Part shown: piece by piece, positions 13,559 to 49,916 of the stretch
Layout: each line of letters begins with the position of its first letter
How positions within the stretch are numbered: the first letter of the stretch is position 1
Source of the DNA: Chitinophagales bacterium
GTDB taxonomy: Bacteria > Bacteroidota > Bacteroidia > Chitinophagales > JADIYW01
Assembly: GCA_023957215.1 (NCBI GenBank)
Contig: JAMLHH010000012.1
Span: forward strand, 1-64,000
Length of the DNA: 64,000 nt
Direction of reading: 5' to 3'
Notes under the pieces: model-generated
The model's database searches: none
What the model was told of the DNA's origin: nothing
Seen by the model: only the letters and a program-made list of their open reading frames with translations
Translations under genes and position numbers: made by a program

Positions 13559-13651
13559 GGTGAGACTACCCGTATTTATACCACTGTATCGTCCTCACAT
13601 TCTCCAATTTTCAAATTAACTTGGGGTGAGACTACCCGTATTTATACCACT
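13559..13651. repeat. Two direct copies of a 27-bp repeat
   Basis: The same 27 bases, beginning GGTGAGACTACCCGTA, occur at 13559-13585 and 13625-13651, 66 bp apart. The second copy abuts the truncated IS1380 remnant. Origin unknown; it could mark the ends of a lost element. Confidence 0.7.
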
Positions 13652-14017
13652 TTCATGTTTTGTGCAATTTGTTCTTTTAGGTGCTTTAGATCCGAAACAA
13701 ATTCACCGTTGCAAAGTGAATTTTTAAGTAGAGAAAGAATGATGTCCGAATACGCATATTTTGCTCTATAATTGCGAAAACCCAATGTTCTGTCGATATA
13801 ACTATGAACATTACTTTGTTTCAACAAAGAATTGATGAAATTTAAACCTCCAAAAGGAGTGGTGTTTTGAGAAGAATGTCTAAGTTTATCCACGGTATAT
13901 ATTTTTGGTGTAGTAACTTTAAATATACACCTTTTAGGTGAAACCTAAAAGCCTCGCAGTCCTTTTATTTTAAAGGGATTGCAGAGGTTTTTGTTTTTCT
14001 GTTGCGATTATTGGGTT
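13650..14017 (-). mobile_element. Truncated IS1380-family copy
   Basis: These about 370 bp are nearly identical to the upstream end of the complete element at 60110-61680: the same transposase N-terminus, the same TTTTAGGTGAAACCTAAAA hairpin, the same GC-richer hairpin with T run, and the same terminal inverted repeat (GTTGCGATTATTGGG, ending near 14015). About 1.2 kb encoding the rest of the transposase and the other end are missing. The break coincides with the second 27-bp repeat. Confidence 0.85.
13654..13893 (-). pseudogene. IS1380 transposase N-terminal fragment
   Basis: About 80 residues (MDKLRHSSQNTTPFGGLNFI, then NSLLKQSNVHSYIDR and NGEFVSDLKHLKEQIAQNMK) match the first 80 residues of the intact transposase at 60275-61558 with only a few changes. 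The frame then runs into unrelated sequence and stops. All three catalytic acidic residues are missing, so it cannot transpose. It may be a source of homology with the intact copy 47 kb away. Confidence 0.88.
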
Positions 14018-15726: not shown

Positions 15727-16263
15727 GGGTTTTGTTTGCTTTTTAATAACAAGGTACCATAGTTCTTGCGAATCCATTTCGTCATCTTCAGGGTCATGAT
15801 AAATAGCTTCCAATTTTTTTATTACCGGTCCATTAATATTTTCTTTGCCTGTAATAATTTTTGTTCCTTTTTCCGGAATGCCCTTCCTGTAATAGTTCAC
15901 ATTAATTAGTTTGTCAAAAATATCATTATATGAAATGGTAGCCGCACTGCCTGTGACAAGCCATATATAGCCGTCATCATCTTTTGGTTTTATTGTAAGC
16001 ATATAGCTAGGGAAATAACCTTTTCATGTGGAAGTTTCCCATACTGAATCCTTCCATGTAGCAATCTTGTCATGTTCCGGACTATCACCTTTTTTTGAAA
16101 GCTTCCAACTGGCATCATAGCTGATTGAAAGAAATTCGTTTTCATAGGTCATTTTGCTATTAGGAAATGGACGGGCAACTTTAAAATTTGCGTTATTTGG
16201 GGTTTGTGCGTTTAATGAAACCATCACGAGGCACATCGTCAATGTTGTCATAATTTTTTTCAT
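15658..16263 (-). pseudogene. Secreted protein gene interrupted by in-frame TGA
   Basis: Two open stretches on the minus strand share one frame. The first (16263 down to a TGA at 16024-16026) encodes a signal peptide (KKIMTTLTMCLVMVSLNAQ) and about 60 more residues ending VWETST. After the TGA the frame stays open for 129 more codons (KGYFPSYMLTIKPKDDDGYI, then WLVTGSAATISYND), ending inside the antisense of ychF. Together they look like one secreted protein of about 200 residues broken by a nonsense codon. The last 22 or so codons are antisense to conserved ychF sequence, so the natural stop may also have been lost. Family unknown. It lies 17 bp downstream of the WG-repeat gene array. Confidence 0.65.
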
Positions 16264-16280
16264 TGTTTTTGATTTTTAAA

Positions 16281-17489
16281 TTACTTCACTTCTTTCCCTG
16301 TTTTGTCGATGTAAAAATCTCTGTCGTTTAATTCGACATAGGCTTTTCCGTTTTTAAACCGACCATACACATAATCATATCTAAATGGAATCACTTCTTT
16401 TCCTGTCTTATCTATTATCCCCCATTTTCCGTTAAGGTTAACTCCTGCCAACCCTTCGGAAAAACCTCCTAAATCATCGTACTTGAATGGTATAACCACT
16501 TTTCCGGTTTTGTCTATAAACCCCCATTTTCCGTTAAGGTTAACTGCTACCAATCCTTCGGAAAATTTGGAATCATATTCGCCCTCATCGTATTTGAGTG
16601 GAATGATTTCTCTTCCTGTTTTATCTATAAACCCCCATTTCCCGTTAAGGTTAACTGCTGCCAACCCTTCGGAAAACTCGATTACATTATCGTATTGCAC
16701 CGGGGTGATTTCTTTTCCGGTTTTGTCTATGAAACCCAGTTTGCCTTTGAGGACAACTATTGCCATTCCTTCGTAAAAGTTAAATTTGCCGTCATCATTA
16801 TCGTATTTGATGGGTGTAACTTCTTTTCCGGTTTTGTCCACAAGCCCCCATTTATCATTGAGACTTACACCTATCAATCCTTCGGAAAACCCGGAAATCC
16901 AGTTTATGTCATTGTATTTCATCGGGGTGATTTCTTTTCCCGTTTTATCTATAAGACCCCATTTGTGGTAGCGTTCAACTACTGCCAGCCCTTCTGAAAA
17001 ATCTCTTGCACCGGAATATTTGAGCGGAATTATTATTTTTCCTGTCCGGTCAATATAACCATAGTCATAGCCATCGTCAAATTCCCCACCTCCACCAATT
17101 ATTGCCAAGCCTTCGGAAAAGCCACCCATACCTATAGTTTCGTATATAATAGGAATTACTTCTTTCCCTGTTTTGTCTATAAAACCCCATTTATCATTGA
17201 GACTTACACCTGCCAAACCTTCAGAAAAATATCTGGCATCATCATATTTTAGTGGAATTACTTCTTTACCCTTTTTGTCTATAAAGCCCATCTTGTCGTT
17301 AAGTGCAACTACTGCCAGTCCTTCGAAAAATTCTTCATTGATAGGTTCATCATATTTACCAGGCAGGATCACTTTTCCTGCTTGATCTTTCAATCCCCAT
17401 TTCCCATTAGTGTCTTCAAAAAATGTTTGTGCCTGCGTTGTTGTCATCGCTACTAGGCATACAAAAGCGGTTGTTAATAATTTTTTCAT
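16281..17489 (-). CDS. Secreted WG-repeat protein (402 aa)
   Basis: After a signal peptide ending TTTQAQ the protein consists of about ten copies of the WG beta-repeat (PF14903-like), each roughly 35-40 residues with the pattern FSEGLAxVxLNxKWGFIDKTGKE followed by VIPxKYD. Such repeats form small beta units of unknown binding role, common in Bacteroidota. It is the third gene of a four-gene minus-strand array; each is separated by the same 17-bp spacer (TTTAAAAATCAAAAACA), which shows the array arose by tandem duplication. Long antisense open frames over it are by-products of the repeat. Confidence 0.9.
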   Translation of the reverse strand: MKKLLTTAFVCLVAMTTTQAQTFFEDTNGKWGLKDQAGKVILPGKYDEPINEEFFEGLAVVALNDKMGFIDKKGKEVIPLKYDDARYFSEGLAGVSLNDKWGFIDKTGKEVIPIIYETIGMGGFSEGLAIIGGGGEFDDGYDYGYIDRTGKIIIPLKYSGARDFSEGLAVVERYHKWGLIDKTGKEITPMKYNDINWISGFSEGLIGVSLNDKWGLVDKTGKEVTPIKYDNDDGKFNFYEGMAIVVLKGKLGFIDKTGKEITPVQYDNVIEFSEGLAAVNLNGKWGFIDKTGREIIPLKYDEGEYDSKFSEGLVAVNLNGKWGFIDKTGKVVIPFKYDDLGGFSEGLAGVNLNGKWGIIDKTGKEVIPFRYDYVYGRFKNGKAYVELNDRDFYIDKTGKEVK

Positions 17490-17506
17490 TGTTTTTGATT
17501 TTTAAA

Positions 17507-17965
17507 TTACTTCACTTCTTTTCCGGTTTTGTCAATGTAAAATTCTCTACCGTTTAATGAAACTTTGGCTTTTCCATTCTTGAAGGCGTTAGTAACATCA
17601 TATTTAAGAGGTATGACTTCTCTACCGGTTTTGTCTAAATACCCCCTATTCTTAGCAGAAGCCCCCTTCTCCTTAAATATTCCAACTACCACAAGCCCTT
17701 CAGAAAAATTTCCTGCATCGTCATATTTAAGGGGTATTACTTCTTTTCCGGTTGTGTCTATAAATCCCCATTTGCCGTTAAGGCTAACTGATGCCAATCC
17801 TTCGGAAAATTCACCCCAAAATTTATCATACTTACCGGGCAGAATTACATTCCCTGCTTTATCTTTCAATCCCCATTTACCGTTGGCATCTTTGAAAAAT
17901 GTTTGTGCCTGTGTTGTTGTCATCGCTACCAGGCATAAAAGAGCGGTTGTTAATAATTTTTTCAT
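17507..17965 (-). CDS. Secreted WG-repeat protein, short paralogue (152 aa)
   Basis: This 152-residue protein has nearly the same N-terminus as the next gene (MKKLLTTALLCLVAMTTT then QAQTFFKDANGKWGLKD) and only three to four WG repeats, then the same C-terminal ending (FYIDKTGKEVK). It looks like a contracted copy of the 402-residue neighbour, with repeats lost by recombination. One repeat carries an insertion (VVVGIFKEKGASAKNRGYLD) in place of the usual LNGKWGFID. Confidence 0.88.
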   Translation of the reverse strand: MKKLLTTALLCLVAMTTTQAQTFFKDANGKWGLKDKAGNVILPGKYDKFWGEFSEGLASVSLNGKWGFIDTTGKEVIPLKYDDAGNFSEGLVVVGIFKEKGASAKNRGYLDKTGREVIPLKYDVTNAFKNGKAKVSLNGREFYIDKTGKEVK

Positions 17966-17982
17966 TGTTTTTGATTTTTAAA

Positions 17983-19365
17983 TTACTTCACTTCTTTCCC
18001 CGTTTTGTCGATGTATAATTCCCTGCCGTTTAATCCTACTTTGGCTTTGCCGTTTTTAAAATTTTCTACCCAATCGTATTTCAGCGGGATTATCTCTTTT
18101 CCGGTTTTATCTACAAATCCCCATTTGCCACCATACCAATCTCCGTCGAACTTCATCTCTCCGATTGCTACCCTTAAAAGGCCTTCGGAAAACGGCTTGA
18201 AATCCACAACGCCGCTTTGGAAATCGGTATAACTGTATTTGAAAGGGATGATTGTTTTGCCTGTCTGGTCTATCACTCCCCATTTGCCATCCAGTTAAGC
18301 ATCGGTGAGCCCTTGTTTGAAGCTGCTTACAGCGTCATATTTTAAAGGAATAATTTCTTTGCCGGTTTTATCTATAAAACCACATTTATGATTCAGCACA
18401 ACCATTGCCGGAAACCCTTTGTAAATCTCTATCTCATCATATTTTGGCACAACAATCTCTTTGCCCGTTTGGTCTATTAAACCCCATTTACCGTTGAGCT
18501 TAACATCTGCAAGCCCGTAAAAAAAAGTACCTGCCCGCTCATATTTACAGGGGATGATTTCTTTTCCCGTTTTATCAATAAACCCAACTTTTCCGTTTAA
18601 TTTAACTTTGGCAAGCCCTTCGGAAAACCCGTATGCATCTTCATAAATAAAGGGAATAACCTCTTTACCGGTTTTGTCTATAAAGCCCCATTTTTCGTTG
18701 AGTCTGACGTTAGCCAGCCCTTCTTCAAAATTAGTTGCCATATCATATATTAATGGGATAATTACTTTATCAGAGCTGTCTATAAATCCCCTTTTCCGAT
18801 TGCTTTCCACTGTAAAAAGTCCTTCACCTGAACTAAACTTTAAATTATACTTTGGCTGTTCATTATTTTTTGTAGGTTTTGTTAACTTGACCACATAATA
18901 ATTACACTTATCATCATTGTCATAAAATTCTTCTGTTCGAAGTGTGTATTTTTCGTATTTTTTTGACTTATATGAAGAAAATGTAGTGCCACCATCTGTT
19001 TGATTTAAAGCAATATTTTCAAAATCACCCCATACAAGCAGTTCACCTATTAATTTGCTTTGATATTCTATGTTTTTGCTACGCAAAAAGAGTGTTGTGA
19101 ATTCATCTTTAAATGTTATACCTACTGAGTAAACCTCTATATTAGGGAGTTCATAGTTAGGGTTAAATACAATTTGGTGCTTTCCTCCAAAGGCATCATT
19201 GTATGGATTTTCTTTTTGACTAATTCCTTTTGATAATACGCTACTTGCAAAGCAATCAAAATCTGTGCATGATGCTAATTCTAAAAGGTCTTTTTGAGAA
19301 AGGGTTTGCCCAAAGAGTGATAGACAATTTAAAACTGCCATTAAGAATAATATAAATATTTTCAT
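17983..19365 (-). pseudogene. WG-repeat protein gene with in-frame TAA
   Basis: From the ATG at 19365 (signal peptide MKIFILFLMAVLNCLSLFGQ) the frame codes a unique N-terminal domain of about 180 residues, then WG repeats. A TAA at 18295-18297 follows FKQGLTDA; the same frame then continues LDGKWGVIDQTGKTIIPFKY to the usual end FYIDKTGKEVK-like YIDKTGKEVK at 17983. In the other repeats this position is a Lys codon (DVKLNGKWG), so one base change, AAA to TAA, explains the break. Without it the protein would have about 460 residues. It is the first gene of the array. Confidence 0.82.
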
Positions 19366-19744
19366 AGTTTGTAATTTTTTAGTCCCACTCGTATGGCTTT
19401 TCGGTTTCGCCCCGTTTTTATAGTGGTCGCTGGTCTCCACATTTTGTTTGTCAATCGTAACAATCAAGAACTGTCAAACCAGAAGAACGGTGGTTCTCGT
19501 GTTTGTCTGTGTCCGTTGTAGTGTCGTTTAAACTTCTGACTAACGTTAAAGTCAAGCAGTTATGATCAGTTAGTTACAATTACAAGTTTTTCATTAACCA
19601 AGTCAAATTTAGCAATTTGTTTTTTAATTCTTTTCCACTATTCCCAACTTTACTCACTTTTTATTGTTTTTTTTCAAGTGGTGTTCGTGATATCGCTTCG
19701 CTAAGTTCTTTTTGCTACCAAATGCGTGGGCTGTCCTGTCGTTG
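19366..19744. other. Gene-free stretch upstream of the WG array
   Basis: About 380 bp between the WG array start and the decayed AlbA_2 gene. I see no open frame worth calling, no exact TAnnTTTG box and no clear repeat; base composition is less AT-rich near 19390-19550. Confidence 0.5.
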
Positions 19745-20282: not shown

Positions 20283-21134
20283 TTATTTTCTGATTAGAAT
20301 TTCTTGGTCTAAACCTTTCTTATATTTGTGAATGACGTTTATGAGCTGCAACAAATTTTCTTCTTGAATTGTTTCAACTACGAAATTGATTTTTTGTTGA
20401 TCGTAACGTGCTTTGTTGCCGTTTTCTGAAATTAAGTTTTTAATATTTTCGGGAATAAAAAATGATGCTTTTTCAGAAAGATATTTTTTAAACTCGTTTA
20501 AATAAATTCCTATTCCTGCAAAATCAAAATCGCCAAAATGCAAGTAATTATTTGGAATAGATTGAAGCCATTTGATTAAATCTTTACTTTGATTTTGCGG
20601 ATAACGGCTTACAAAAAGCGGTTGAATTTCTTTGAAAAGATATTTTTGCTTTTCTATGAAACGAAAATTTTCAGGATTTTCAATTCCGACAATCGTAATA
20701 TTTTTATCGGGAACAAAATTTTCAAAGTCGTAAATGAATTGAAATGTTCCATTAGTAAAATTTAGTGTAATTGCTTTTCCGTTTAGTGTTGCTTGAACAG
20801 GAACATAACTGTTTATCAAGAAACCTTTGAATGTTCTTACTTTTTTTAATTTTGAATCAGAAGAAATAGCAACTAATTCATTTCGCTGTACATTCTCTTT
20901 TTGACAGACTTCAATGTATTTTTTCAGGTCGTTTATTCCGTATTTGTTTTGTAAATAGAGGAATAAAGCGTTACTGTTTGTGAGTTGTAGTTTTTTCTGT
21001 ATTCTTCCTGTCCTTTCAATTATTCTTTCAGTAACCAATTCTTCTATCAATGCGTGTTTTGCCGAACCTGACGGAATTATTTCGCCCTGTGAAAGTTGTA
21101 ATAGTTTTTCTGCTATGTGAAAAGGTATCTTCAT
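20283..21134 (-). CDS. jetD: Wadjet JetD / MksG-like TOPRIM nuclease
   Basis: This 283-residue protein ends in a TOPRIM-like fold: the first acidic residue in VGIENPENF (E152) and the paired aspartates in HFGDFDFAGIGIYL (D202, D204). An N-terminal winged-helix-like part (residues 1-70) precedes it. In Wadjet/MksBEFG systems the TOPRIM subunit cuts DNA that the SMC complex has extruded, so small circular plasmids are linearised. It lies just after the SMC gene on the same strand, as expected. Assignment rests on the motif and on context; it is diverged from classical JetD (DUF2220). Confidence 0.7.
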   Translation of the reverse strand: MKIPFHIAEKLLQLSQGEIIPSGSAKHALIEELVTERIIERTGRIQKKLQLTNSNALFLYLQNKYGINDLKKYIEVCQKENVQRNELVAISSDSKLKKVRTFKGFLINSYVPVQATLNGKAITLNFTNGTFQFIYDFENFVPDKNITIVGIENPENFRFIEKQKYLFKEIQPLFVSRYPQNQSKDLIKWLQSIPNNYLHFGDFDFAGIGIYLNEFKKYLSEKASFFIPENIKNLISENGNKARYDQQKINFVVETIQEENLLQLINVIHKYKKGLDQEILIRK

Positions 21135-21145
21135 TTCTTATTTTA

Positions 21146-21204
21146 TGCCACGAATGCACAAATTTTCACTAATTTCTATTCGTGTCCATTCGTATATTCG
21201 TGGC
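21146..21204. repeat. 59-bp palindromic repeat, copy A
   Basis: Begins TGCCACGAATGCACAAATTT and ends ATATTCGTGGC; the two ends are an imperfect inverted repeat of about 17 bp. Copies B (25431-25490) and C (25889-25946) have the same orientation. This copy overlaps the 3' end of jetC and provides its last ten codons or so and its TAG stop. Confidence 0.9.
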
Positions 21205-24200
21205 TTTTTATCGCTGTAATTTTCCTTACCAAACGCTTTATGCTCGTTACGTTTTTGCTGTCTTTTGACAATAAGTATGTGTAACGGTAATCAGTCGCAT
21301 TCAAGGAAGTTGGCGAACTATTGATGAGCAAAATATTTCTGTCGTTGGCAAATTTCAAAATACCTTTTACGTTGTTTGGATGCAATTTTCCGATTTCGTC
21401 CATCATACAATGTAAACGGAAATCATCTTTTTGTTTCTTAGATGCCTTTTCTTTGAATACATTCAAGAGCAAAATATTTATCATTGCTTTTACCAAAACG
21501 TCTGTTCCTTCTGAACCAACATTAGTCAGCTTTTCAACCCAACCTGTATCGTTGTCGTTTTCTACAATTTTAAATAACAATTCAAACGAATCGGAAAGTG
21601 TAATTTCTTTTTCTCTTGAAGTTGCCATTTCTTTGATGAGTTGTATCAGTAATGAAATAGCTTTTTCGTTTTTGTTGGTTTGCCCGCTTGTAGAAAACAA
21701 ATCGGGTTTCCCTAAATCAAAAACATTTTCATCATTAAAATGCTTGATTTCGACTAATAAAGTGAAAATTCTATTTTTACTTTCTATGGTTTTTAATTCC
21801 ATACTTTTGATTGCACCAACAAAATTTCTTGCAATAAAATCGTTGTTTATTTCTGATATTATTTTGCTGATTTCTCCTTCTTTTTCAATCAAAGAATTGG
21901 TTTCTCTACCAATTTGTCGAATGATATGGGCAAAACGTTCTTCAACACGTTGTTTGTATTCTGTAATTTTATTTTCATCAACAAATTCTTTTAGCATTTC
22001 TGCAAACTCAAAGAATTCCGACTTTTCGGCAAATTTTACTTTAAAGCTAAACAGATTATTTTCTTGAAAATTGCCTGTGAATTTGTTGATAGCTTCCTGT
22101 AATTCCACATAACGCCTTGTAATCGTATTGTCAGTTGTGTGTAATTCCCCAATCAAATGAACACAATTTTGTTCAGTTCTATGTTCATTACTGAATGATG
22201 AAATAAATTGCTCAATGGATTGATAAATTTCTGTTTTTACAAAACTTTCAAAAGTATTCAAATCGCTTTGAAATGCTGAAAGTGTTTGTGTTATCGCTTC
22301 AATATCTGCTTTGTGTTTGCCAAGTTCCTGAATGAATTTGTCTTTTTGCTGATTGTGTTTTTCAGCTTCGTTTTCTAATTGTTTGTCCAATAAAGTTTTT
22401 TTGTTTTTAAACTCGTCTTCTTTGTCAAACAGTTGTTCTTTATCATATTTGTAGCGTTCGGTAACGGATATATTATTTTCTATAAACGATAATTCTTTTC
22501 CGATTTCAGAAAGCCGTAAATCAATTTTTTCAATTGTATCTGTATCCGCACCTTTTGTGTCTAATTCTTTATTTTGATTGGCTTTAATTATGTCAGATTT
22601 TGCATTTATAGTTGTCTTTTCTTCTTGAATTTGTTCGTCAAGTTGTTTTGAAATATCAGCTAATTTTTGTTGTTCTGTTTTTATTTTTGCTTCTTTTTCT
22701 TTCTTCTTTGTGTCAATCGTTTTTGTAATTCCGTTTTCTATTTTCTGAACTTGTTCGTCCGCTTTTGTTTTTTCTTCGCTTAGTTTAGAAATGGCAATTT
22801 CAATTTTTTCTATTGCCGCTTTTTGTTCTGCTTTTGCTTTCGTTTCCCATTCTGAAAGGCGAACATTTAATTCATCTAATTTTATTTTGCCGTTTGTTTT
22901 TGTGTATTCACTTTGTTGAATAATTTCTTTTTGCTCTTTAATTTTTGGTTGAAACCTGCGTTTTAGTTTTTCCAACTCGTCATTGGATTTAGCGTTGAGA
23001 TTTGCAATAGCTTGTTTAGTTTCTTCAATTTTGTTTTTTAAATCTTCTTGCTCTTTCTGTAAATCAGCAACCGTTTTTACGCTCTTGTTGATTTCGTTTG
23101 TATCAATGCTAATTCCATAAAAACTCAAATCAGCGTTGGAAACTTTTTTAGGATTTAATCCTTGTTGAAACAACACATTGTCTTCGTCAATTACCTTTCC
23201 AATGGTCTTATCCCAATCAGAAATATGTTCGTTGAGCCAACCGTAGAGCGAATTTTTGCTGTTTATTATTTTAGTATCAATCTCTACAATTTGTTTATTG
23301 AGTTTTTCTTGTTCTTCTGTTTTTCGTTCAACTTTTCTACTTGTGTCAGCCTTGAAATTCTTTTCCTCAAATTCCCATTCTTTTTGAATGGTTTTGATTT
23401 TATTATCCGCTTGTTGAAATTCCATTTCAGCTTTTGAAACGGCAGATTTTACGTTTGCAATTTCAGTTTTACAGTTTGCAATTTCACTTTCATAAAACCG
23501 TTTATGTTTGGCTTCGGAAAGTTTAATTTTATTGTCGGTAATTGCATTTGCTTTCTCTTTTACATTGGCATTGGCAGTTTCTAATTCCTCTTTGTGTTGT
23601 TTACGGATTTCTTCATAAATCAATTCATATTGTTTATTTAATTCGTCTTTGAAATGAATAAAATTGCAGTTGGCATTATTCTTTTCGGTCTGTTTGCTGT
23701 TCTCAAATGCTGAAAGTTGATTTTCTAATTGTCTTAACTGTGCTTCGTAGCGTTGCTGAATTTCAAGAAACTTTGAGGTGAGAATTTCTTTTTCTTCCGT
23801 TAAATTTTTCTTTTCTAAATCCAACGTTGGTTTCTTGGCAACACGTTCAAGAATAGTTTCAATTTTTAATGCTTCGTACTCTTTTTTCTTGGTTGAAATT
23901 TCTTTTAGCCTGTCTGAAACTACACCGATTTGCTTTTGTATTTCGCCTTTCTTTTTGTCAAAAACAGCATCAAGGTCATTGAGTTTTTCTTTTACTCTAT
24001 CTCGTTTTAATTCTTCTATATTTAATTGTTCCTGAACTTTCGGTTGTTTTTCTTTTACATTGTTTAAAGCGTAACCTAACTGAAACGCCAATTCTTTTTT
24101 CTTTTGTTCTAAAAATTTCAAAGATGAATAAGTCGTAGAAACTTTTTCTGCTTGTTTGTCAATATTGCCGTCCGTCCATTTTTTAATGTCGTTCAGATTG

Positions 24201-24868
24201 GTTTCAAAGTCTCGTAAATGTGTTTGAGAATAAGTAGTTAAGTCAATTTTTATTTCATCTTCATTCAGCGATTTGATAATGGTTTCCTTTACAAATTCAG
24301 CGTCCAATTTTGCATTTAAAAACACATTCGCTATCGTTCTCGGAATGTTTTGATATTGCTTACTTTCCATCAAAGCATATTTTCTAAACTCGCTTGATAA
24401 GCCTTTGTTGTTTCCGTATAAAATATTTCTGTATTCTTCGTAATTGCTGATAATTCTTGTAGCATCAATTTTTTCTAATCGCTCTCTGATTTTGTCAAAA
24501 GTTTCAAACGCCTTTCCTTCGCTGTCAATAAAATAATTTTTGTCATAACCTGAATTGATAAATCGAAATGCAGCTCTGCCTTGTGATCTGAAACTCAATA
24601 CACAATATTTTCCTGTTTCGGTCTGAACTTCGTAAACGATGTAAGAGTTTTGATAAGGGAAATAATATTCATTGTAGTTTTTCTTTTCTCTCGGAATGCC
24701 CAATTTTTGAGTATCTGCGTTGTAGAAAAACAAAATTGCTCTTAGCAATGTACTTTTTCCAACACCTTGCGTACCGATGAAATGCACGTTTCCGTCCAAA
24801 TCAACTTCGGCATATTTCAGCGACTTATCGGCACTGTTTATAAATACTATTTTATTCAGGTATCTCAT
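21176..24868 (-). CDS. jetC: Wadjet JetC / MksB-like SMC ATPase
   Basis: This 1230-residue protein has an N-terminal Walker A (FIGTQGVGKST, residues 30-40), very long coiled-coil arms rich in Lys, Glu and Gln (about residues 260-900, with a possible hinge near 540-590), and a C-terminal Walker B (LHCMMDEIGKL, Asp1157/Glu1158) followed by ILLINSSPTSL. This is the architecture of MukB/JetC-type SMC proteins, the DNA-extruding motors of Wadjet and Mks complexes. It overlaps the jetB end by 17 bp. The last residues (SHEYTNGHE) are encoded by repeat copy A, so the native C-terminus was replaced when the repeat entered. Confidence 0.8.
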   Translation of the reverse strand: MRYLNKIVFINSADKSLKYAEVDLDGNVHFIGTQGVGKSTLLRAILFFYNADTQKLGIPREKKNYNEYYFPYQNSYIVYEVQTETGKYCVLSFRSQGRAAFRFINSGYDKNYFIDSEGKAFETFDKIRERLEKIDATRIISNYEEYRNILYGNNKGLSSEFRKYALMESKQYQNIPRTIANVFLNAKLDAEFVKETIIKSLNEDEIKIDLTTYSQTHLRDFETNLNDIKKWTDGNIDKQAEKVSTTYSSLKFLEQKKKELAFQLGYALNNVKEKQPKVQEQLNIEELKRDRVKEKLNDLDAVFDKKKGEIQKQIGVVSDRLKEISTKKKEYEALKIETILERVAKKPTLDLEKKNLTEEKEILTSKFLEIQQRYEAQLRQLENQLSAFENSKQTEKNNANCNFIHFKDELNKQYELIYEEIRKQHKEELETANANVKEKANAITDNKIKLSEAKHKRFYESEIANCKTEIANVKSAVSKAEMEFQQADNKIKTIQKEWEFEEKNFKADTSRKVERKTEEQEKLNKQIVEIDTKIINSKNSLYGWLNEHISDWDKTIGKVIDEDNVLFQQGLNPKKVSNADLSFYGISIDTNEINKSVKTVADLQKEQEDLKNKIEETKQAIANLNAKSNDELEKLKRRFQPKIKEQKEIIQQSEYTKTNGKIKLDELNVRLSEWETKAKAEQKAAIEKIEIAISKLSEEKTKADEQVQKIENGITKTIDTKKKEKEAKIKTEQQKLADISKQLDEQIQEEKTTINAKSDIIKANQNKELDTKGADTDTIEKIDLRLSEIGKELSFIENNISVTERYKYDKEQLFDKEDEFKNKKTLLDKQLENEAEKHNQQKDKFIQELGKHKADIEAITQTLSAFQSDLNTFESFVKTEIYQSIEQFISSFSNEHRTEQNCVHLIGELHTTDNTITRRYVELQEAINKFTGNFQENNLFSFKVKFAEKSEFFEFAEMLKEFVDENKITEYKQRVEERFAHIIRQIGRETNSLIEKEGEISKIISEINNDFIARNFVGAIKSMELKTIESKNRIFTLLVEIKHFNDENVFDLGKPDLFSTSGQTNKNEKAISLLIQLIKEMATSREKEITLSDSFELLFKIVENDNDTGWVEKLTNVGSEGTDVLVKAMINILLLNVFKEKASKKQKDDFRLHCMMDEIGKLHPNNVKGILKFANDRNILLINSSPTSLNATDYRYTYLLSKDSKNVTSIKRLVRKITAIKSHEYTNGHE

Positions 24869-25421
24869 TTCTTACTTCATCGGGAATATTTATGGTTAAA
24901 ATCAAGTTTTCAAGATATTTGAAGGAAGCCAATGCTTTGTATTGATGTGTAATTTCATTCTCTAATTCAATAAACGTATCGTTTATCAACATTTTCAAAA
25001 TCCTGTCTAAAATATCTTGGTGTTTTTCTTTGTCTGCAGTATGTTTCTTTAGGCCTTCTAATTTCGTTTCTAATTCCGCATCGGTTTTTAGCCTCACCAA
25101 AATATCAGAAGGAGAAAAACGATACCCAGAACTAAAAGCGTTGTCAAAAGTTTTCAGAAAATCAATAATATCAATCCAACGAAAGGCACTTTCAATTTTG
25201 TTTTCAATGTCTATCTTAGTTTCTGGTCGGCTGAAATAAAAATATTCATCGCCTTTTTCTAAAACAAAGTTGATATTCAAAAAATATTCGTACAGATTTT
25301 CAAAATTCTGTTCATCATCAATCACGTTGTACAAATTGCTAATCGTTTTATCAGAACTGTTGGAACTGATAAATTGCCCTTTGCTTAGGATTTTGAATAT
25401 TTCGGCTGTTTGTGGTATCAT
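24852..25421 (-). CDS. jetB: Wadjet JetB / MksE-like subunit
   Basis: About 189 residues, largely helical, with segments such as AEIFKILSKGQFISSNSSDK, DEQNFENLYEYFLNINFVLE and DEYFYFSRPE: a winged-helix layout fitting the MukE/MksE/DUF4194 group, which binds the kleisin and regulates the SMC motor. The chosen ATG (25421, MIPQTAEIF) lies after repeat copy B; an upstream in-frame GTG at 25454 would put repeat-encoded residues in the protein. It overlaps jetC by 17 bp. Identification relies on size, fold pattern and position. Confidence 0.68.
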   Translation of the reverse strand: MIPQTAEIFKILSKGQFISSNSSDKTISNLYNVIDDEQNFENLYEYFLNINFVLEKGDEYFYFSRPETKIDIENKIESAFRWIDIIDFLKTFDNAFSSGYRFSPSDILVRLKTDAELETKLEGLKKHTADKEKHQDILDRILKMLINDTFIELENEITHQYKALASFKYLENLILTINIPDEVRNEIPE

Positions 25422-25430
25422 ATTGTTCTT

Positions 25431-25490
25431 TGCCACGAATGCACGAATTTTCACTAATTATCTATTCGTGTTCATTCGTGTATTCGTGGC
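25431..25490. repeat. 59-bp palindromic repeat, copy B
   Basis: Begins TGCCACGAATGCACGAATTT and ends GTATTCGTGGC. It fills the junction between the GxxExxY stop (25498) and the jetB ATG (25421). Its ends can pair over about 17 bp. Confidence 0.9.
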
Positions 25491-25497
25491 TTTTTAT

Positions 25498-25875
25498 TTA
25501 ATAAACTAATCTTTTATATTCTAATTTTCCTCGGCCAAAATTTACCAAAAGTCCCAACTTGTTTCCTGACACTTTCAGGTAATTGATTGTCTGTGCTATA
25601 TGCTCATCAGTTAACATTGTTACACATTTTACTTCAAGAATAATCTTGTCCATCACCACAAAATCCGCATAAAACTTATGTGGCAATAGAATATTTCTAA
25701 AATATACTTCATACGGTTTCTCTCTTTCATAAAATATTGAATCTTGTCTAAAAATCAGTTCTAATGCGTCTTTATATACTATCTCTAAAAATCCGTGTCC
25801 TAATTCGTTGTGTACTTCCATACACTTGCCTATAATTTGGTAGGATTCTTCTTTATATATAATTTCTTTTCCCAT
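25498..25875 (-). CDS. GxxExxY protein (PD-(D/E)XK nuclease superfamily)
   Basis: About 125 residues with the name-giving motif GFLEIVY in HNELGHGFLEIVYKDAL, and a nuclease-like core FYADFVVMDKIILEVKC (Asp, then Glu-x-Lys), followed by QTINYLKVSGNKLGLLVNFG. Members of this family are small PD-(D/E)XK-fold proteins of unknown function, frequent in Bacteroidota. The ATG at 25875 fits the family start (MGKEIIYKEESY). The gene lies between jetA and jetB with repeat copies C just upstream and B just downstream, as if inserted as a cassette. A second family member is at 42341-42769. Confidence 0.9.
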   Translation of the reverse strand: MGKEIIYKEESYQIIGKCMEVHNELGHGFLEIVYKDALELIFRQDSIFYEREKPYEVYFRNILLPHKFYADFVVMDKIILEVKCVTMLTDEHIAQTINYLKVSGNKLGLLVNFGRGKLEYKRLVY

Positions 25876-25888
25876 TCTGTCATTTTTT

Positions 25889-25946
25889 TGCCACAAATGC
25901 ACGAATTTTCACTAATTGCTATTCGTGGTTATTTGTGTATTGTGGC
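25889..25946. repeat. 59-bp palindromic repeat, copy C
   Basis: Begins TGCCACAAATGCACGAATTT and ends GTATTGTGGC. It fills the junction between the jetA stop (25950) and the GxxExxY ATG (25875). It is more diverged than copies A and B, and its centre is shorter. Confidence 0.88.
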
Positions 25947-25949
25947 TAT

Positions 25950-27146
25950 TTATTTCGGATAAATTATTGCAAATTCAATTTCTTCTTTTTCTGCAAATTG
26001 CTCGGTTATTTCAAAAACAGTTTCATATTGAGAAACCATTTGACAATAAATTGTAACCCGCTCGTCAAATGTGACCTTTTTCCCAAATTTGTAATTCATT
26101 ACAAAGTCAAAAAGATTATAGCTTCCGGCTACAAATCCGTTTTTCACTTCCTCTAAATTGATTTGAATTTCTTCTTCTATTTTGGTTTCTAAATATTCGT
26201 CAGAAATTTTGTCTGCAACTGGTTGGATTAACTTGATACCTGATTTTTGTCGTTGTGCAATTTTCTTTATACTCGCAAATGCTTCTTCACTAGTTTGTAA
26301 GTATTCAAGAGAAAGTTTTAGCGGATAACTTGGGTTAGGTTCAAAAATTACTGAATTGTTTATTGATATAACTTGTTTGATGTCTGTTTCTGCTTCAAGT
26401 CTAAATTGGTCTTTTAGATATTTGATTTGTCGCAACTTTTCAACTACACCGCTTTGTTGTTGAATTTGATTTAAGAAGTCAATTACTTGTCGTTCTATTT
26501 CAATTAAGTTGTGCGTACATTTTTGTAATTGCAATTTTAATTGAACAATTATTTTATTCAATTCTTCGTCTGTTGCTGTCTTAAAAAATGTAATGTCATC
26601 TTCTGAAATTAAAGATTCAGTTTGTTCAATGAGTTTGGTAATGTCTTTACGCTTGCCGTCAAGGTTAATGAGTTTCGCTCTTTTGTTTTTAAAAGTGGGT
26701 TCGCTTTTGAAAGTGTTGTCAATATTGCGTTTTAAATCAACCACATTTCTTAGTGTGATAATACCAATTTTTCTAAGTGTATTTTTAATTATTCGCAAAT
26801 ACTCATACTTTCTTTGTTCGTTTTGCTCGTTGAAATAATAGTCAATATTTTGTTTTACTTTTTCAATATTTTCGTTGATATACGAAGTGTTGATTTCTTC
26901 GTTTGCTTCCAAAACCTGTTCAAAAAAGCGTAAATACAAATCGTCTATTTCAAGGTTGTTTGCGTTTTGCCTTATAACGGAACGGTCAATTAAATATTGA
27001 AGTTTATTATCATTGTTTTCAAGCAATTCAAGAGCATACTCGTACTTATAGTCCGTAGTTTTCCGCTTCTTAAACATTTCTGTAAGAAGTTTTTCCTCTC
27101 TGTATAGGGCAGATACAAGATCTTTTATATTTGAAAAAGTATTCAT
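25950..27146 (-). CDS. jetA: Wadjet JetA / MksF-like kleisin subunit
   Basis: This 398-residue helical protein is first in the SMC operon. Its N-terminal half (LVSALYREEKLLTEMFKKRK, DDLYLRFFEQVLEANEEINT, KNTLRKIGIITLRNVVDLKR) is followed by a coiled region (DKRKDITKLIEQTE-like, EELNKIIVQLKLQLQKC) and a C-terminal part after residue 290. Kleisins of the MukF/MksF/JetA type have this winged-helix plus coiled-coil layout and bridge the two SMC heads. I did not find a single diagnostic motif; the call comes from gene order (A-B-C-D) and size. A TAAATTTG box lies 46 bp upstream. Confidence 0.6.
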   Translation of the reverse strand: MNTFSNIKDLVSALYREEKLLTEMFKKRKTTDYKYEYALELLENNDNKLQYLIDRSVIRQNANNLEIDDLYLRFFEQVLEANEEINTSYINENIEKVKQNIDYYFNEQNEQRKYEYLRIIKNTLRKIGIITLRNVVDLKRNIDNTFKSEPTFKNKRAKLINLDGKRKDITKLIEQTESLISEDDITFFKTATDEELNKIIVQLKLQLQKCTHNLIEIERQVIDFLNQIQQQSGVVEKLRQIKYLKDQFRLEAETDIKQVISINNSVIFEPNPSYPLKLSLEYLQTSEEAFASIKKIAQRQKSGIKLIQPVADKISDEYLETKIEEEIQINLEEVKNGFVAGSYNLFDFVMNYKFGKKVTFDERVTIYCQMVSQYETVFEITEQFAEKEEIEFAIIYPK

Positions 27147-40691: not shown

Positions 40692-42284
40692 ATGAGTGAA
40701 GACCAAAAACGAATATTAGAACAACAACTTTGGAATATAGCCAATACTTTGAGGGGCAAAATGAATGCGGATGAGTTCCGTGATTACATTTTGGGATTTA
40801 TTTTCTACAAGTATCTGAGTGAAAAGATGGAGTTGTTTGCCAACAACATCTTGCAACAAGACAAAATTAAGTTTCGTGAGATAATACCAAAAACAGCACA
40901 AGCCAACGATTTTTTAGAAGCCATCAAAGAAGAAGCTTTGGAGAAATTAGGCTACTTCCTTAGACCCGAAGAACTCTTTACCGAAGTGGCAAAAAGAGGG
41001 ATGGGTGAAAATGAAGACATTGACATTTTTGACGAAAGCAAAACAAATTTCATACTTGAAGACCTTCAAAAAATTCTGACCAATATCCAGATGAGCACAA
41101 TGGGCACTGAGAGCGAAGAGGATTTTGACAACCTCTTTGAAGACATGGATTTGAACAGCACTAAATTAGGAAAAACTCCCGAAGCAAGAAATGCAATCAT
41201 CGCAAAAGTGCTTTCACATCTTGACAAGATTGATTTCAAATTGGAGAAAACAGAATTAGATGTTTTGGGTGATGCTTACGAATATTTAATTGGTCAATTT
41301 GCCAGCGGTGCGGGTAAAAAAGCAGGTGAATTTTACACACCACAGGAAGTTTCTAAAATATTGGCAAAGGTTGTTACTACAGGCAAGCAAAAGCTAAAAT
41401 CGGTTTATGACCCTACTTGTGGTTCAGGTTCTTTGTTGTTGCGTGTAGCCCGAGAAGTGAAAGATGTAGCCATGTTTTACGGACAAGAAATGAACCGTAC
41501 CACCTACAACCTTGCCCGAATGAATATGATTCTGCACGATGTACATTACAGAAAATTTGATATTAAGCAGGAAGATACCTTAGAATATCCGCAACACCTA
41601 GATGATTTACCCTTTGAAGCCATTGTAGCCAACCCGCCTTTCTCTGCCAAGTGGAGTGCCAACCCTCTTTTTCTGAGTGATGACCGTTTTAGTCAATACG
41701 GAAAGTTAGCCCCGGCTAGCAAAGCCGATTGGGCATTTGTACAGCACATGATTTATCATTTGGCTGAAAATGGAACGATGGCAATAGTATTGCCACACGG
41801 GGCTTTGTTCAGAGGTGGAGCGGAACAACACATTCGCAAATTTTTGATTGAAAACAAAAACTATTTAGATGCCGTGATTGGATTGCCTGAAAAGATATTT
41901 TTTGGTACGGACATACCCACTTGTATTATGGTTTTCAAGAAATGTAGAGAAAACCCGAATGATGTCGTTTTTATTGATGCCAGCCAACACTATGCGAAAG
42001 CAACTCAAAACTATTTGAGACAAGAGGACATTGATAAAATCATCAACACCTATCAGAACAGGATAACAGAAGACAAGTACAGTTTTGTGGCTTCTCTTGA
42101 GCAGATTCGTGAAAACGATTACAACTTGAACATACCTCGCTATGTTGACACTTTTGAGGAAGAAGAGGAAATTGATTTAGATGCAGTTTCTAACCAATTG
42201 GTTGATTTGGACAAAGCCATTAAAACGACCGAAATCGAGATAGCTAGATTTTGTAAAGAATTGGGAATTGCCACACCTTTTTAA
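40692..42284 (+). CDS. hsdM: Type I restriction-modification methyltransferase HsdM
   Basis: This 530-residue protein is the N6-adenine methyltransferase subunit of a type I system. Residues about 1-130 are the HsdM N-domain (RILEQQLWNIANTLRGKMNA, YKYLSEKMELF). SAM binding follows at VYDPTCGSGSLLLRVARE (motif I), then the catalytic NPPF in IVANPPFSAKWSANP, and HGALFRGGAEQHIRKFLIEN. The C-terminus (DKAIKTTEIEIARFCKELGI) is a helix that packs on HsdS. It resembles type IC enzymes. The stop at 42284 directly touches the left inverted repeat of the inserted GxxExxY cassette. Confidence 0.94.
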   Translation: MSEDQKRILEQQLWNIANTLRGKMNADEFRDYILGFIFYKYLSEKMELFANNILQQDKIKFREIIPKTAQANDFLEAIKEEALEKLGYFLRPEELFTEVAKRGMGENEDIDIFDESKTNFILEDLQKILTNIQMSTMGTESEEDFDNLFEDMDLNSTKLGKTPEARNAIIAKVLSHLDKIDFKLEKTELDVLGDAYEYLIGQFASGAGKKAGEFYTPQEVSKILAKVVTTGKQKLKSVYDPTCGSGSLLLRVAREVKDVAMFYGQEMNRTTYNLARMNMILHDVHYRKFDIKQEDTLEYPQHLDDLPFEAIVANPPFSAKWSANPLFLSDDRFSQYGKLAPASKADWAFVQHMIYHLAENGTMAIVLPHGALFRGGAEQHIRKFLIENKNYLDAVIGLPEKIFFGTDIPTCIMVFKKCRENPNDVVFIDASQHYAKATQNYLRQEDIDKIINTYQNRITEDKYSFVASLEQIRENDYNLNIPRYVDTFEEEEEIDLDAVSNQLVDLDKAIKTTEIEIARFCKELGIATPF

Positions 42285-42778
42285 TTGTCTGAATTAGGAT
42301 TTTTAGGATGAAAAGATTAAAGGATTAAGTCAGCAAGATTATGAAATATGAAGAATTAACACATAAAATAATTGGCTGTGCAATGAAAGTGCACAACACA
42401 TTGGGTAATGGTTTTCAAGAAGTAATTTATCAAAGAGCTTTAGCCATTGAAATGAATAAGCTTGGAATAGAATTTCAGCGTGAAATGGAAATGACTATTT
42501 TCTATGATGGTTTTGATATTGGCACAAGAAGGGTTGATTTTTTTGTAGAGGAAAATATAATGGTGGAATTAAAAGCCTTAATTAGACTCGAAGAAGTTCA
42601 TTTAGCCCAGGCTATGAATTACTGTCAAGCATACAATTTACCAATAGGTTTGCTTATAAACTTTGGTGCAAAAAGTTTAGAATTTAAAAGAGTATATAAT
42701 CTTACACATCCCGAAAATAAAGATTACGTAAAAAATAATCCTATCATCCAAAAATCAAACAAATCCTAATTCAGACAA
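42285..42778. repeat. Cassette bounded by perfect 18-bp inverted repeats
   Basis: TTGTCTGAATTAGGATTT at 42285-42302 is matched by its exact reverse complement AAATCCTAATTCAGACAA at 42761-42778. The left copy begins at the base after the hsdM stop; the right copy ends at the base before the hsdS ATG. Inside the left end are further GGATT words (TAGGATG, AAGGATT). The 494-bp unit holds only the GxxExxY gene, whose last codons run into the right repeat. Confidence 0.93.
42341..42769 (+). CDS. GxxExxY protein (PD-(D/E)XK nuclease superfamily)
   Basis: This 142-residue protein has the family motif in HNTLGNGFQEVIYQRALAIE, the nuclease-like core RRVDFFVEENIMVELKALIR (Asp, Glu-x-Lys) and AQAMNYCQAYNLPIGLLINF ending GAKSLEFKRVY. 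It is homologous to the gene at 25498-25875 but clearly diverged from it, so the two are not a recent duplication. The C-terminal tail (NPIIQKSNKS) is encoded by sequence of the right repeat. It lies between hsdM and hsdS, in the same direction, and is not a known part of type I systems. Confidence 0.92.
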   Translation: MKYEELTHKIIGCAMKVHNTLGNGFQEVIYQRALAIEMNKLGIEFQREMEMTIFYDGFDIGTRRVDFFVEENIMVELKALIRLEEVHLAQAMNYCQAYNLPIGLLINFGAKSLEFKRVYNLTHPENKDYVKNNPIIQKSNKS

Positions 42779-43987
42779 ATGAGAAATACCAATACAAAAC
42801 CAGTTTTGCGATTTCCTGAATTTAAAGAGGATTGGAATTTCTTTTATGGGAATGAACTATTTGAACCAATTTCAAACAAAAACCATAATTCTGATTTGCC
42901 AATTTTGGCTATTTCTCAAGAATTTGGTGCAGTGCCAAGAGATTTAATTAATTATCAAATTTCAGTTACCGATAAAAGTGTATCAAGTTATAAGGTTGTC
43001 GAGAAGGGAGATTTCATTATTAGTTTAAGGTCGTTTCAAGGTGGAATTGAATATTCGGAGTATAAAGGAATTTGTAGTCCTGCATATATCATTCTTCGTC
43101 CAAAAAGAGATATTGAAGATTATTTTTTCAAATACTATTTAAAAACTTTCAGATACATCCAACATTTACAAAGTAAATTAGAAGGTATAAGAGATGGGAA
43201 AATGATTAGTTATAAATATTTTTCTGAGATAAAATTACCTTTCCCTTCCCTCACTGAACAGAAAAAAATTACAGATTTTTTAATTCAAATAGACAACCGA
43301 ATTGCTCAACTCACAGAGAAAAAAGAGCATTTAGAACTATACAAAAAAGGAATTACGCAAAAAATATTCTCCCAAAAACTTCGCTTTAAAGATGAAAATG
43401 GAAAGGATTTTCCTAAGTGGGAAGCAAAGAAATTTGAAAATATCTTTAAAAGAGTAACTACAAAAAATACCGAGAACAATGATAATGTTCTTACAATCTC
43501 TGCACAATACGGTCTAATTAATCAGCAAGATTTCTTCAACAAGTCTGTATCAGCAAATGATGTAACAGGTTATTATTTAATCAAAAAAGGTGATTTTGCT
43601 TACAACAAAAGCTATTCAAAAGGTTATCCAATGGGTGCGATTAAACCATTGAAGAAATATGAAAAAGGAGTTGTTTCAACTCTTTACATCTGTTTCAATA
43701 TAAAAGACAATAGCAATCCCGACTTCTATGAACATTATTTTGAAAGCGGAAAAATTAATAAGCAAATACACAAAATAGCTCAGGAAGGGGCGAGAAATCA
43801 CGGCTTATTAAATTTAAGTGTTGTTGAATTTTTCAAAGACATTGACATTTTAAAACCGCATATCAAGGAACAAGAAAAAATCGCCTCATTTTTAAATAAA
43901 ATCAGCCAGCAAATCAGTCTGGTCAATGAGCAATTGGAAGAAACCCGAACCTTTAAAAGGGCATTATTAAGTAAAATGTTCTGCTAG
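42779..43987 (+). CDS. hsdS: Type I restriction-modification specificity subunit HsdS
   Basis: This 402-residue subunit reads the two halves of the target site. Two target-recognition domains (about residues 12-150 and 215-350) are each followed by a conserved helix: LPFPSLTEQKKITDFLIQID with RIAQLTEKKEHLELYKKGIT, and HIKEQEKIASFLNKISQQIS ending KRALLSKMFC. The start ATG is one base after the right cassette repeat. The DNA sequence recognised cannot be predicted. Confidence 0.92.
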   Translation: MRNTNTKPVLRFPEFKEDWNFFYGNELFEPISNKNHNSDLPILAISQEFGAVPRDLINYQISVTDKSVSSYKVVEKGDFIISLRSFQGGIEYSEYKGICSPAYIILRPKRDIEDYFFKYYLKTFRYIQHLQSKLEGIRDGKMISYKYFSEIKLPFPSLTEQKKITDFLIQIDNRIAQLTEKKEHLELYKKGITQKIFSQKLRFKDENGKDFPKWEAKKFENIFKRVTTKNTENNDNVLTISAQYGLINQQDFFNKSVSANDVTGYYLIKKGDFAYNKSYSKGYPMGAIKPLKKYEKGVVSTLYICFNIKDNSNPDFYEHYFESGKINKQIHKIAQEGARNHGLLNLSVVEFFKDIDILKPHIKEQEKIASFLNKISQQISLVNEQLEETRTFKRALLSKMFC

Positions 43988-47965: not shown

Positions 47966-48155
47966 TATGAACATAAAGAGTCTCTACATCATGGAGACAC
48001 AAGCTTAAAATCAAAATACAACTGTTTATAAGCGATAAATTTATTAATTGGTTGAAGCTTGTGAAATATTTATTAAAAATTGATACTTTAGACTTGTTAT
48101 GTAGTTTTGACTTCCAAAACCGTGTAATAAAAATTATAGAGCAAACTAAAGATTG

Positions 48156-49916
48156 ATGTTAAAAAGAATATGTTTTATAGGATATTTCATTGCGGTACTG
48201 ATAGCTTTTAACGCTTGTACGAGTGGTGGAGACAATGCTGTCACACGTGATACGGTCGTGATACATTCAATGTCAGAACCGGAACGCTTAAATCCTATTA
48301 CTTCGAGCGATGCACAGGCTACTCAAATGGAAATGAATATATTTCAAAGTATGTTAAAATATGATTTTACAACTTTGAAATTAATACCCGTTTTGGCAGC
48401 AGATATGCCGGAAATTGAAGAAAATGATCATGGTATGAGCTTGAGCTTTACCCTCAGACCGGAAGCGAGGTGGGACAATGGCAATCCGGTTACTGCCGAA
48501 GATGTACTTTTCTCATTCAAAGCGATTATGTGTCCGAGAGTGCAATCCGACCAATTAAGAAATTCATTTGATTTTGTTTCAGATGCCAAAATTGATGGGG
48601 AAAATCCACTTAAAATTACTTTTTACACGAGTGTACCCAATATGTTGGCGAAAGATATTTTAGGAAGTGATATAGTCATCATTCCTGAATATATATTTGA
48701 TGAAAACCAATCACTTAGAAAATACGATGTTAAGAGGTTTTTAAAACCGGATGAAGAATTGATGGAAGATCAAACCATAAAAGATTTTGCCTCCCGTTTT
48801 AATTCGGAGGAATACAACAGAAGTCCTGAAAAAATTAACGGCTCGGGAGCATATATTTTAAAGAAATGGGAAACTCAGCAACGCGTTATTTTGGAACGTA
48901 AAACAAATTGGTGGGGCGATCAACTCAAAGATGTAAATATGTTCTTTGAAGCGAATCCATCAAAATTAATTTATGAAGTGATAAACGACCCTAATACGGC
49001 TATTACAGCTTTGAAATCAAGAAAGTTAGATGTAATGACAGTGACTTCCATCAAAGATTATTTAGACTTGGACAAATCGGAAAGATTTAAGGAAAACTTT
49101 GTAAAATCAGAACCGCCGATGTTGGCTTTTTCCTATATCGGATTGAATGTGAGAGATAAAATGCTCAATGATAAAAGAGTAAGACAGGCACTTGCACATT
49201 TGGTCAATGTCGATCAAATTAATGAAAAAATCTTGTACGGAAAAGGAAAAAGAATCATTGGCACTATTTCTCCCACTAACAAAGAAGCTTATGCCTCAGA
49301 ATTAACTCCTTACGATTACAATTTGGAAAAAGCAAAACAACTTTTGGCTGATGCAGGTTGGAAAGATACAGACGGTGATGGTATTTTGGACAAAGTAATA
49401 GATGGTCAGAAAACACCTTTTAAATTGACCTATTCATACAACCAAGGGAATCCTGTAAGAGAAACAGTGGGTTTGATGATACAAAGTACATTTAAAGAAG
49501 CCGGTATTACTTTGGATGTCAGGTCAATAGACTGGTCTAAATATTTGGAAGATTTAAAACAACAAAAAATACAAATGTTTTACGGCGCTTGGGTGACTAA
49601 TCCAAGAGATGAGGACCCCATGCAATTGTGGCACACCGAATCAAGAAACGGAGGCTCTAACTATACCGGTTTTGGTGACAGTAAATCTGATGAAATGATT
49701 ATGAAAATCAGGGCAGAATTGGATGTTAACAAACGCAATCAACTCTATCACCAGTGGCAGGCACTTTTATACGATGAAGTCCCTTATATTTTCTTGTTTA
49801 ATACTCCATATCAAAATGTCATCAGCAATCGCTTTGAAAACTTCCATGCATCTTCTATTTATCCGGGGTATTATGAAGCAGGTTTTATTTTAAAAGATAA
49901 AAAAGAGTCTGAGTAA
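48156..49916 (+). CDS. Peptide ABC transporter substrate-binding lipoprotein
   Basis: This 586-residue lipoprotein starts LKRICFIGYFIAVLIAFNAC, with the lipid-modified Cys after the FNA motif. It is a family 5 solute-binding protein: MSEPERLNPITSSDAQATQM, WDNGNPVTAEDVLFSFKAIM, KSRKLDVMTVTSIKDYLD and AHLVNVDQINEKILYGKGKR. It delivers peptides or similar solutes to the permeases at 49922 and 51339. I chose the ATG at 48156; an in-frame TTG is one codon upstream. The gene is the first of a three-gene operon that lacks ATPase genes. Confidence 0.9.
   Translation: MLKRICFIGYFIAVLIAFNACTSGGDNAVTRDTVVIHSMSEPERLNPITSSDAQATQMEMNIFQSMLKYDFTTLKLIPVLAADMPEIEENDHGMSLSFTLRPEARWDNGNPVTAEDVLFSFKAIMCPRVQSDQLRNSFDFVSDAKIDGENPLKITFYTSVPNMLAKDILGSDIVIIPEYIFDENQSLRKYDVKRFLKPDEELMEDQTIKDFASRFNSEEYNRSPEKINGSGAYILKKWETQQRVILERKTNWWGDQLKDVNMFFEANPSKLIYEVINDPNTAITALKSRKLDVMTVTSIKDYLDLDKSERFKENFVKSEPPMLAFSYIGLNVRDKMLNDKRVRQALAHLVNVDQINEKILYGKGKRIIGTISPTNKEAYASELTPYDYNLEKAKQLLADAGWKDTDGDGILDKVIDGQKTPFKLTYSYNQGNPVRETVGLMIQSTFKEAGITLDVRSIDWSKYLEDLKQQKIQMFYGAWVTNPRDEDPMQLWHTESRNGGSNYTGFGDSKSDEMIMKIRAELDVNKRNQLYHQWQALLYDEVPYIFLFNTPYQNVISNRFENFHASSIYPGYYEAGFILKDKKESE

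Follow-up and report, generated by a model that had tools for sequence, protein, structure and literature searches.

A small gene of the GxxExxY family stands inside a Wadjet defence operon of a Chitinophagales bacterium, enclosed by two copies of one imperfect palindrome, and the locus raises the question of why gene and repeats occur together and whether the encoded protein acts on the repeats. The locus was analysed within a window of 64,000 nucleotides (contig JAMLHH010000012.1, positions 1 to 64,000) and compared with GxxExxY loci of other genomes. A first-pass annotation of the window had described the palindromes as REP-like and had raised the possibility that the neighbouring PD-(D/E)XK gene acts on them.

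The GxxExxY gene and its palindromes in the Wadjet operon

The operon is read from the minus strand and comprises jetA (25950..27146, 398 aa), jetB (MksE; 24852..25421, 189 aa), jetC (DUF3584, SMC-like; 21176..24868), and jetD (Wadjet nuclease subunit; 20283..21134). JetB (PF21980, 147.5 bits; start taken from 189-aa homologues), JetC (PF12128, 199 bits), and JetD (PF23947, plus a weak PADLOC JetD match) were assigned by profile, and JetA, with no family hit of its own, by its position and by homologous operons, in agreement with the Wadjet setting originally annotated. The GxxExxY gene (25498..25875, minus strand) has jetA as its upstream and jetB as its downstream neighbour. Its mechanically called ORF extends to a GTG at 25902; this start, like another mechanical one at 25454, falls within a palindrome, and the ATG at 25875 is the likely start.

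Palindromes B (25431..25490) and C (25889..25946), neither assigned to a strand, form the outer ends of the unit facing jetB and jetA, respectively. They directly flank the gene, as had been claimed: C lies 3 bp from the jetA stop (25950), B lies 9 bp from the jetB start (ATG 25421), and together they fill the jetA-jetB gap around the intact GxxExxY gene. Both copies (88.7% alike) begin with TGCCAC and end with GTGGC, and the described pairing of their halves over about 17 bp was recovered without a break in B (−19 kcal/mol, z −7.8) and with one mismatch in C (z −3.8; DNA folds versus dinucleotide shuffles). The arm class of C, GCCAC(R)(R)AT, is common to the clade of the protein. A third copy, A (21146..21205, likewise without strand; 94% to B, z −3.6 by the same procedure), occupies the jetC-jetD junction without a gene, and the end of jetC falls within it. 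In a whole-genome search of the 2.88 Mb genome, A, B, and C were the only copies, all in this one operon and none outside it (next match, E 0.05). Because of this number of three, a dispersed, genome-wide REP was rejected for the window's genome, and the proposed REP likeness holds for other genomes, where up to 224 motif hits occur. No Rfam family was found at the palindromes. Near the operon, a DUF805 RNA motif (Rfam RF03081, 80 bits) lies on the minus strand at 19378-19445.

As intergenic hairpins between operon genes, the palindromes could also serve to terminate transcription or to stabilise mRNA, with an ordinary gene between them. The transcribed strand, however, carries no T-run at B or C, and termination there would cut off jetB to jetD. 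Nor would a terminator need what is observed, namely one sequence class kept within each protein clade in different genomes and phyla, so that this reading appears very improbable.

The identity of the gene as a GxxExxY member with a PD-(D/E)XK fold was borne out by matches to TIGR04256 (131.9 bits, cut-off 35) and PF13366 (120 bits). The motif residues G37, E40, and Y43 are conserved, the catalytic residues D80, E90, and K92 are invariant in 149/149 proteins, a figure slightly favoured by the partial selection of this set by the D..E-K pattern, and the QxxxY motif (Q104/Y108) is kept in 146/149. The AlphaFold model has a PD-(D/E)XK fold (pLDDT 93.6), and its best match among solved structures is the Cas4 protein SSO0001 (4ic1; Z 10.8, rmsd 3.3, 98 residues); since the remaining structures were tied below Z 8, just the superfamily and a leaning towards RecB/Cas4 are claimed. 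A profile sequence search of solved structures gave chance matches only. With Cas4/RecB-type nucleases, the protein shares the core fold, D..ExK, and the QxxxY motif; it differs in its length of about 125 aa and in its position here outside any CRISPR locus. Given the invariant D, E, and K and the modelled fold, the protein is expected to be an active nuclease. GxxExxY matches were found in 103/149 related genomes. The open-access literature yielded nothing relevant on a repeat partner of GxxExxY, PF13366, or the CACAGAG motif and no function of the family, to which the window gene clearly belongs; the name GxxExxY is used there by just two papers, each time in passing.

Five GxxExxY genes were found in this genome, two beside type I restriction hsdS (one of them exactly at the hsdM-hsdS junction), one in the Wadjet operon, and two elsewhere. 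The hsdM-hsdS gene (42341..42769, plus strand) is in the window and has a left arm of the TTGTCTGAATTAGG class (42278..42327, plus strand) immediately past the hsdM stop and a right arm (42736..42785, plus strand) that runs up to the hsdS start codon. Each of the five genes adjoins different repeats, which suggests that the palindrome association belongs to the GxxExxY family rather than to the Wadjet locus. The location between jetA and jetB, together with the presence of 3/5 of the genomic copies in defence operons, could indicate that the nuclease serves the defence operon as an additional functional subunit. GxxExxY is, however, not among the Wadjet subunits in homologous operons, which are without the gene, and its neighbours elsewhere are mostly housekeeping genes; a role as Wadjet subunit was therefore rejected and is regarded as extremely improbable. 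Nothing in the data points to a special tie of GxxExxY genes or palindromes to Wadjet.

Further repeats were observed in the window. Two 300-bp stretches (13650-13949 and 61315-61614) are 97% identical at a distance of 47.7 kb, and the first overlaps a weak match to an IS1380 transposase start. A long array of protein-coding repeat units of about 102-111 nt (18-19 copies) at 16244-18852 is possibly a repeat-protein gene broken into several ORFs.

Inverted arms and their coupling to protein clades

For a controlled flank test, the left flank of each gene was aligned to the reverse complement of its right flank and the score compared with that of control ORFs, with ORFs in the fetched loci called mechanically. 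In genomes of the same order, 52 GxxExxY genes exceeded 276 ORFs of the same loci (medians 35 vs 18.5, p 1.8e-19). The same was seen for 71 GxxExxY genes versus 367 control ORFs (p 7e-22) in a second set from several phyla, which consisted of named records found with one protein as query and included Chloroflexi, Armatimonadetes, Dojkabacteria, and Ignavibacteria, each with recognisable arms. After pooling and size-matching, the median arm score was 34 for 146 GxxExxY genes and 19 for 238 controls (p 1.7e-35), with 61% of the GxxExxY genes above the control 95th percentile and arms detectable at this threshold absent in about 39%; shuffled flanks gave a median of 18 and a maximum of 28. The genomes are non-independent, which was partly handled by family-level and shared-neighbour controls. 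Some top-scoring control ORFs are S23 genes or GIY-YIG nucleases or adjoin an extra gene-less palindrome. The self-hairpin score of each single flank was not above that of controls (p 0.99). What marks the genes in general is thus complementarity between the left and right sides, and full palindromes at both ends, as at the window locus and at three further loci (L242, L247, L250), are a sub-case of it. Direct palindrome repeats surround the gene at further loci.

Several observations were made beside these tests. A KdsC-like phosphatase gene (L222:4406-4918) has the GxxExxY-type arm on both sides, owing to one more gene-less palindrome at the following junction, which resembles copy A of the Wadjet operon. 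Many contigs (L052, L072, L085-L087, L089, L097) end no more than a few hundred bases from a GxxExxY gene, as expected if the repeats of the gene break assemblies. Single-domain GIY-YIG genes, some flanked by long palindromes (TTTCGACTCGAGCGCAGCGAAATGGAG, AGATTCCCACTTTCGTGGGAATGACA), were seen at L228:7736-8035, L063:6683-7033, and L355; as a third example of such a pairing they were rejected (weak enrichment, p 0.0085).

Within the arms, repeats recur with a period of 9-10 bp (z 15.5 at lag 9), and the arms fall into classes that include TTAACCACAGAGGCACAGAG, TTGTCTGAACC..GATT, and GCCACGAATnCACGAAT. Arm k-mer similarity tracks protein identity (Mantel rho 0.44, p 0.001, pairs with shared neighbours left out); such a coupling would also arise from plain co-inheritance, with the protein not reading the arms. 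In the clade of the window protein, arms were found at 20/25 readable loci, most of the 20, in other genomes, being of the GCCACGAAT type, and at L095/L147 (protein 64% identical) GCCACGAATTCACGAATTT on one flank faces its complement on the opposite flank.

S23 genes, nine of which occur in this genome, have inverted arms of the TTAGTAGTTAGTAG and GGTATCAAGTATCAGG types with a strict 7-bp period (L103-L132, from related genomes), and these loci have the layout of rRNA intervening sequences (IVS) located between ordinary genes. By nearest neighbour, 96/101 arms were assigned to the right family, S23 or GxxExxY; the arms thus differ, and two unrelated proteins each have their own arm type.

Operon junctions and gene-less palindromes

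The outer arm edges are usually a few bases from the adjacent stop and start codons. Units lie between co-oriented genes in 52/67 cases, compared with 122/236 for controls (p 1.4e-4), and where both neighbours are co-oriented the unit points along the operon in 52/55. Housekeeping genes predominate among the neighbours (acyl-CoA dehydrogenase, methionine synthase, RuvB, tRNA synthetases, thiG/thiH); some are Cas1 or restriction genes, and a special link to defence operons was rejected, as PADLOC tallies were without clear concentration.

Empty counterparts of the window's junctions were found in homologous Wadjet operons, with a 3-bp gap at jetA-jetB (L279/L280) and a 4-bp overlap at jetC-jetD (L280). 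At the thiG-thiH junction, several Flavobacterium loci carry the full unit, L326 of the same genus carries a gene-less palindrome, other loci are empty (gap −8 to 3 bp), and L353, from a different family, carries an independent unit with other arms. At L220/L221, similarity of the element ends at the arm ends and the neighbourhoods differ. No target duplication was found at the units in the loci examined.

The layout also invites an RNA-level explanation, by which the unit resembles the S23 intervening sequence of 23S rRNA: its arms would pair in the operon transcript, and cleavage of the resulting stem by RNase III would take the insertion out of the message, the protein being secondary. S23 four-helix-bundle genes of the same genomes show the same layout (24 vs 15, p 2.6e-5), in the Coxiella IVS RNase III cuts a 28-bp terminal stem (PMC4990558), and the GxxExxY units do lie within operons, although their orientation fits DNA and RNA views alike. 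Mismatches of the sense-strand arms, on the other hand, comprised 94 GU vs 124 AC, and the lack of a G-U excess speaks against selection for an RNA stem, which was rejected as sole explanation. In addition, each end is often a complete palindrome, as at the three loci named above, which makes pairing across the gene unnecessary, gene-less palindromes and tandem arrays exist, and insertions would not arise from RNA excision. Taken with both kinds of evidence, RNA-level removal is an unlikely account of the units.

At the genome level, the strict palindrome motif was found in 102/396 genomes and the reversed control in few. It was present in 32/38 clade-positive genomes compared with 70/358 others (p 1.7e-15), leaving six clade-positive genomes without the strict pattern. 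Within family f20, the motif occurred in 14/17 genomes with the clade protein and 12/88 without (p 5e-8), and within f18 in 3/5 and 23/103, respectively (p 0.09). The highest count, 224, was reached in genome G350, where a single GxxExxY gene has at least eight tandem palindrome copies on either side (contig C7, ~47,880-48,940; L282). Since 28/30 sampled motif loci have no GxxExxY gene within 1.5 kb, gene-less copies are common. In 15 re-examined genomes, mostly palindrome-rich and lacking the clade protein, GxxExxY genes of some clade were present in 14; the exception, G117 (86% complete, 740 contigs), has 72 GCCACRRAT hits and no GxxExxY gene was found in it, for which loss of the enzyme, a missing contig, or another mover are alternatives.

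With flank tests, arm classes that track the clade, and genome-level co-occurrence, a link of the palindromes to GxxExxY genes is supported well outside the window locus, and an even spread unrelated to these genes was not observed. The excess of gene-less copies over genes in many genomes and the absence of the cognate clade from some palindrome-rich genomes would nevertheless suit an independent REP/MITE palindrome family with another mover, between copies of which GxxExxY genes were caught as passengers. Against this stand the far more frequent bounding of one protein family than of other genes, the arm class that follows GxxExxY phylogeny, the other arm type and 7-bp period of S23 genes, with the nearest neighbour right for nearly all arms, and the invariant catalytic site of GxxExxY; a passenger role relative to the palindromes is likewise unlikely.

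A candidate mobile unit and its relatives

The explanation that we consider probable is that palindromes and GxxExxY gene form one small mobile unit, similar to REP-RAYT systems, whose nuclease spreads its own arms. Such a unit of ~0.4-1 kb would consist of a minimal RecB/Cas4-type PD-(D/E)XK nuclease bounded by two inverted arms, which are palindromes or half-palindromes made of 9-10-bp repeats, and gene-less palindromes such as copy A would be its non-autonomous copies. Kept at stop/start junctions in operon orientation, the unit would be transcribed and leave genes unbroken. From the recurrence of the gene-plus-repeat pairing in many bacteria we infer that the enzyme works on its own repeats: the nuclease would recognise and cut its own arm class as a hairpin, a cruciform, or paired binding sites, and subsequent repair or copying would spread arms and gene. 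The interpretation of the first-pass annotation is partly supported overall, and its suggestion that the protein acts on the palindromes has gained support, not proof.

In REP-RAYT systems, the palindrome copy number depends on the cognate enzyme (PMC3686654), and the link between motif and clade protein, overall and within f20, is a corresponding feature here; in both, class-specific palindromes flank a nuclease gene, the class follows the enzyme, and gene-less copies occur in the genome. The differences lie in the enzyme, which is an HUH/IS200-type tyrosine nuclease in RAYT and a RecB/Cas4-type PD-(D/E)XK protein in GxxExxY, in the arms, which are longer, lack the GTAG/GT(A/G)G tag, and have 9-10-bp internal repeats, and in the position of GxxExxY units within operons; the many dispersed copies were seen in other genomes and not in that of the window. 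Neither an HUH motif nor the catalytic tyrosine of IS200/IS605-like enzymes was found in the window enzyme, which gave PD-(D/E)XK family matches only. With IVS that encode an S23 protein (PMC4990558), the unit shares a short gene between complementary terminal arms, a size of ~0.4-0.6 kb, and silent insertion, and arm complementarity across the ORF was found at the window locus, the ORF being PF13366 and not S23. Protein fold, arm motif, and period (9-10 bp for GxxExxY vs 7 bp for S23) differ, and GxxExxY units lie in operon junctions rather than rRNA and give no sign of RNA pairing. With no HUH enzyme and no S23 protein, the GxxExxY unit is by membership neither REP-RAYT nor IVS.

A wider proposal, put forward tentatively, is that GxxExxY proteins might drive an unrecognised class of prokaryotic mobile elements by means of a RecB/Cas4-type PD-(D/E)XK nuclease, without a DDE, HUH, serine, or tyrosine recombinase, that this class might be a source of widespread unexplained intergenic repeats (of the ACCACAGAGGACACAGAG, GTCTGAACC-GATT, and GCCACGAAT types), and that S23 'intervening sequences' might be a sister type that has a different protein and arms of 7-bp period. 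GxxExxY is a large family of no known job, and its coupling to repeats that recur across phyla offers a testable substrate, namely each protein with its own arm. The coupling would explain a class of intergenic palindromes and would place another type of enzyme next to RAYT in units associated with palindromes. The Wadjet operon appears to be one host of many and its setting incidental, and annotators who meet a GxxExxY gene within an operon for defence or metabolism should treat it as a probable passenger rather than as a subunit of that operon.
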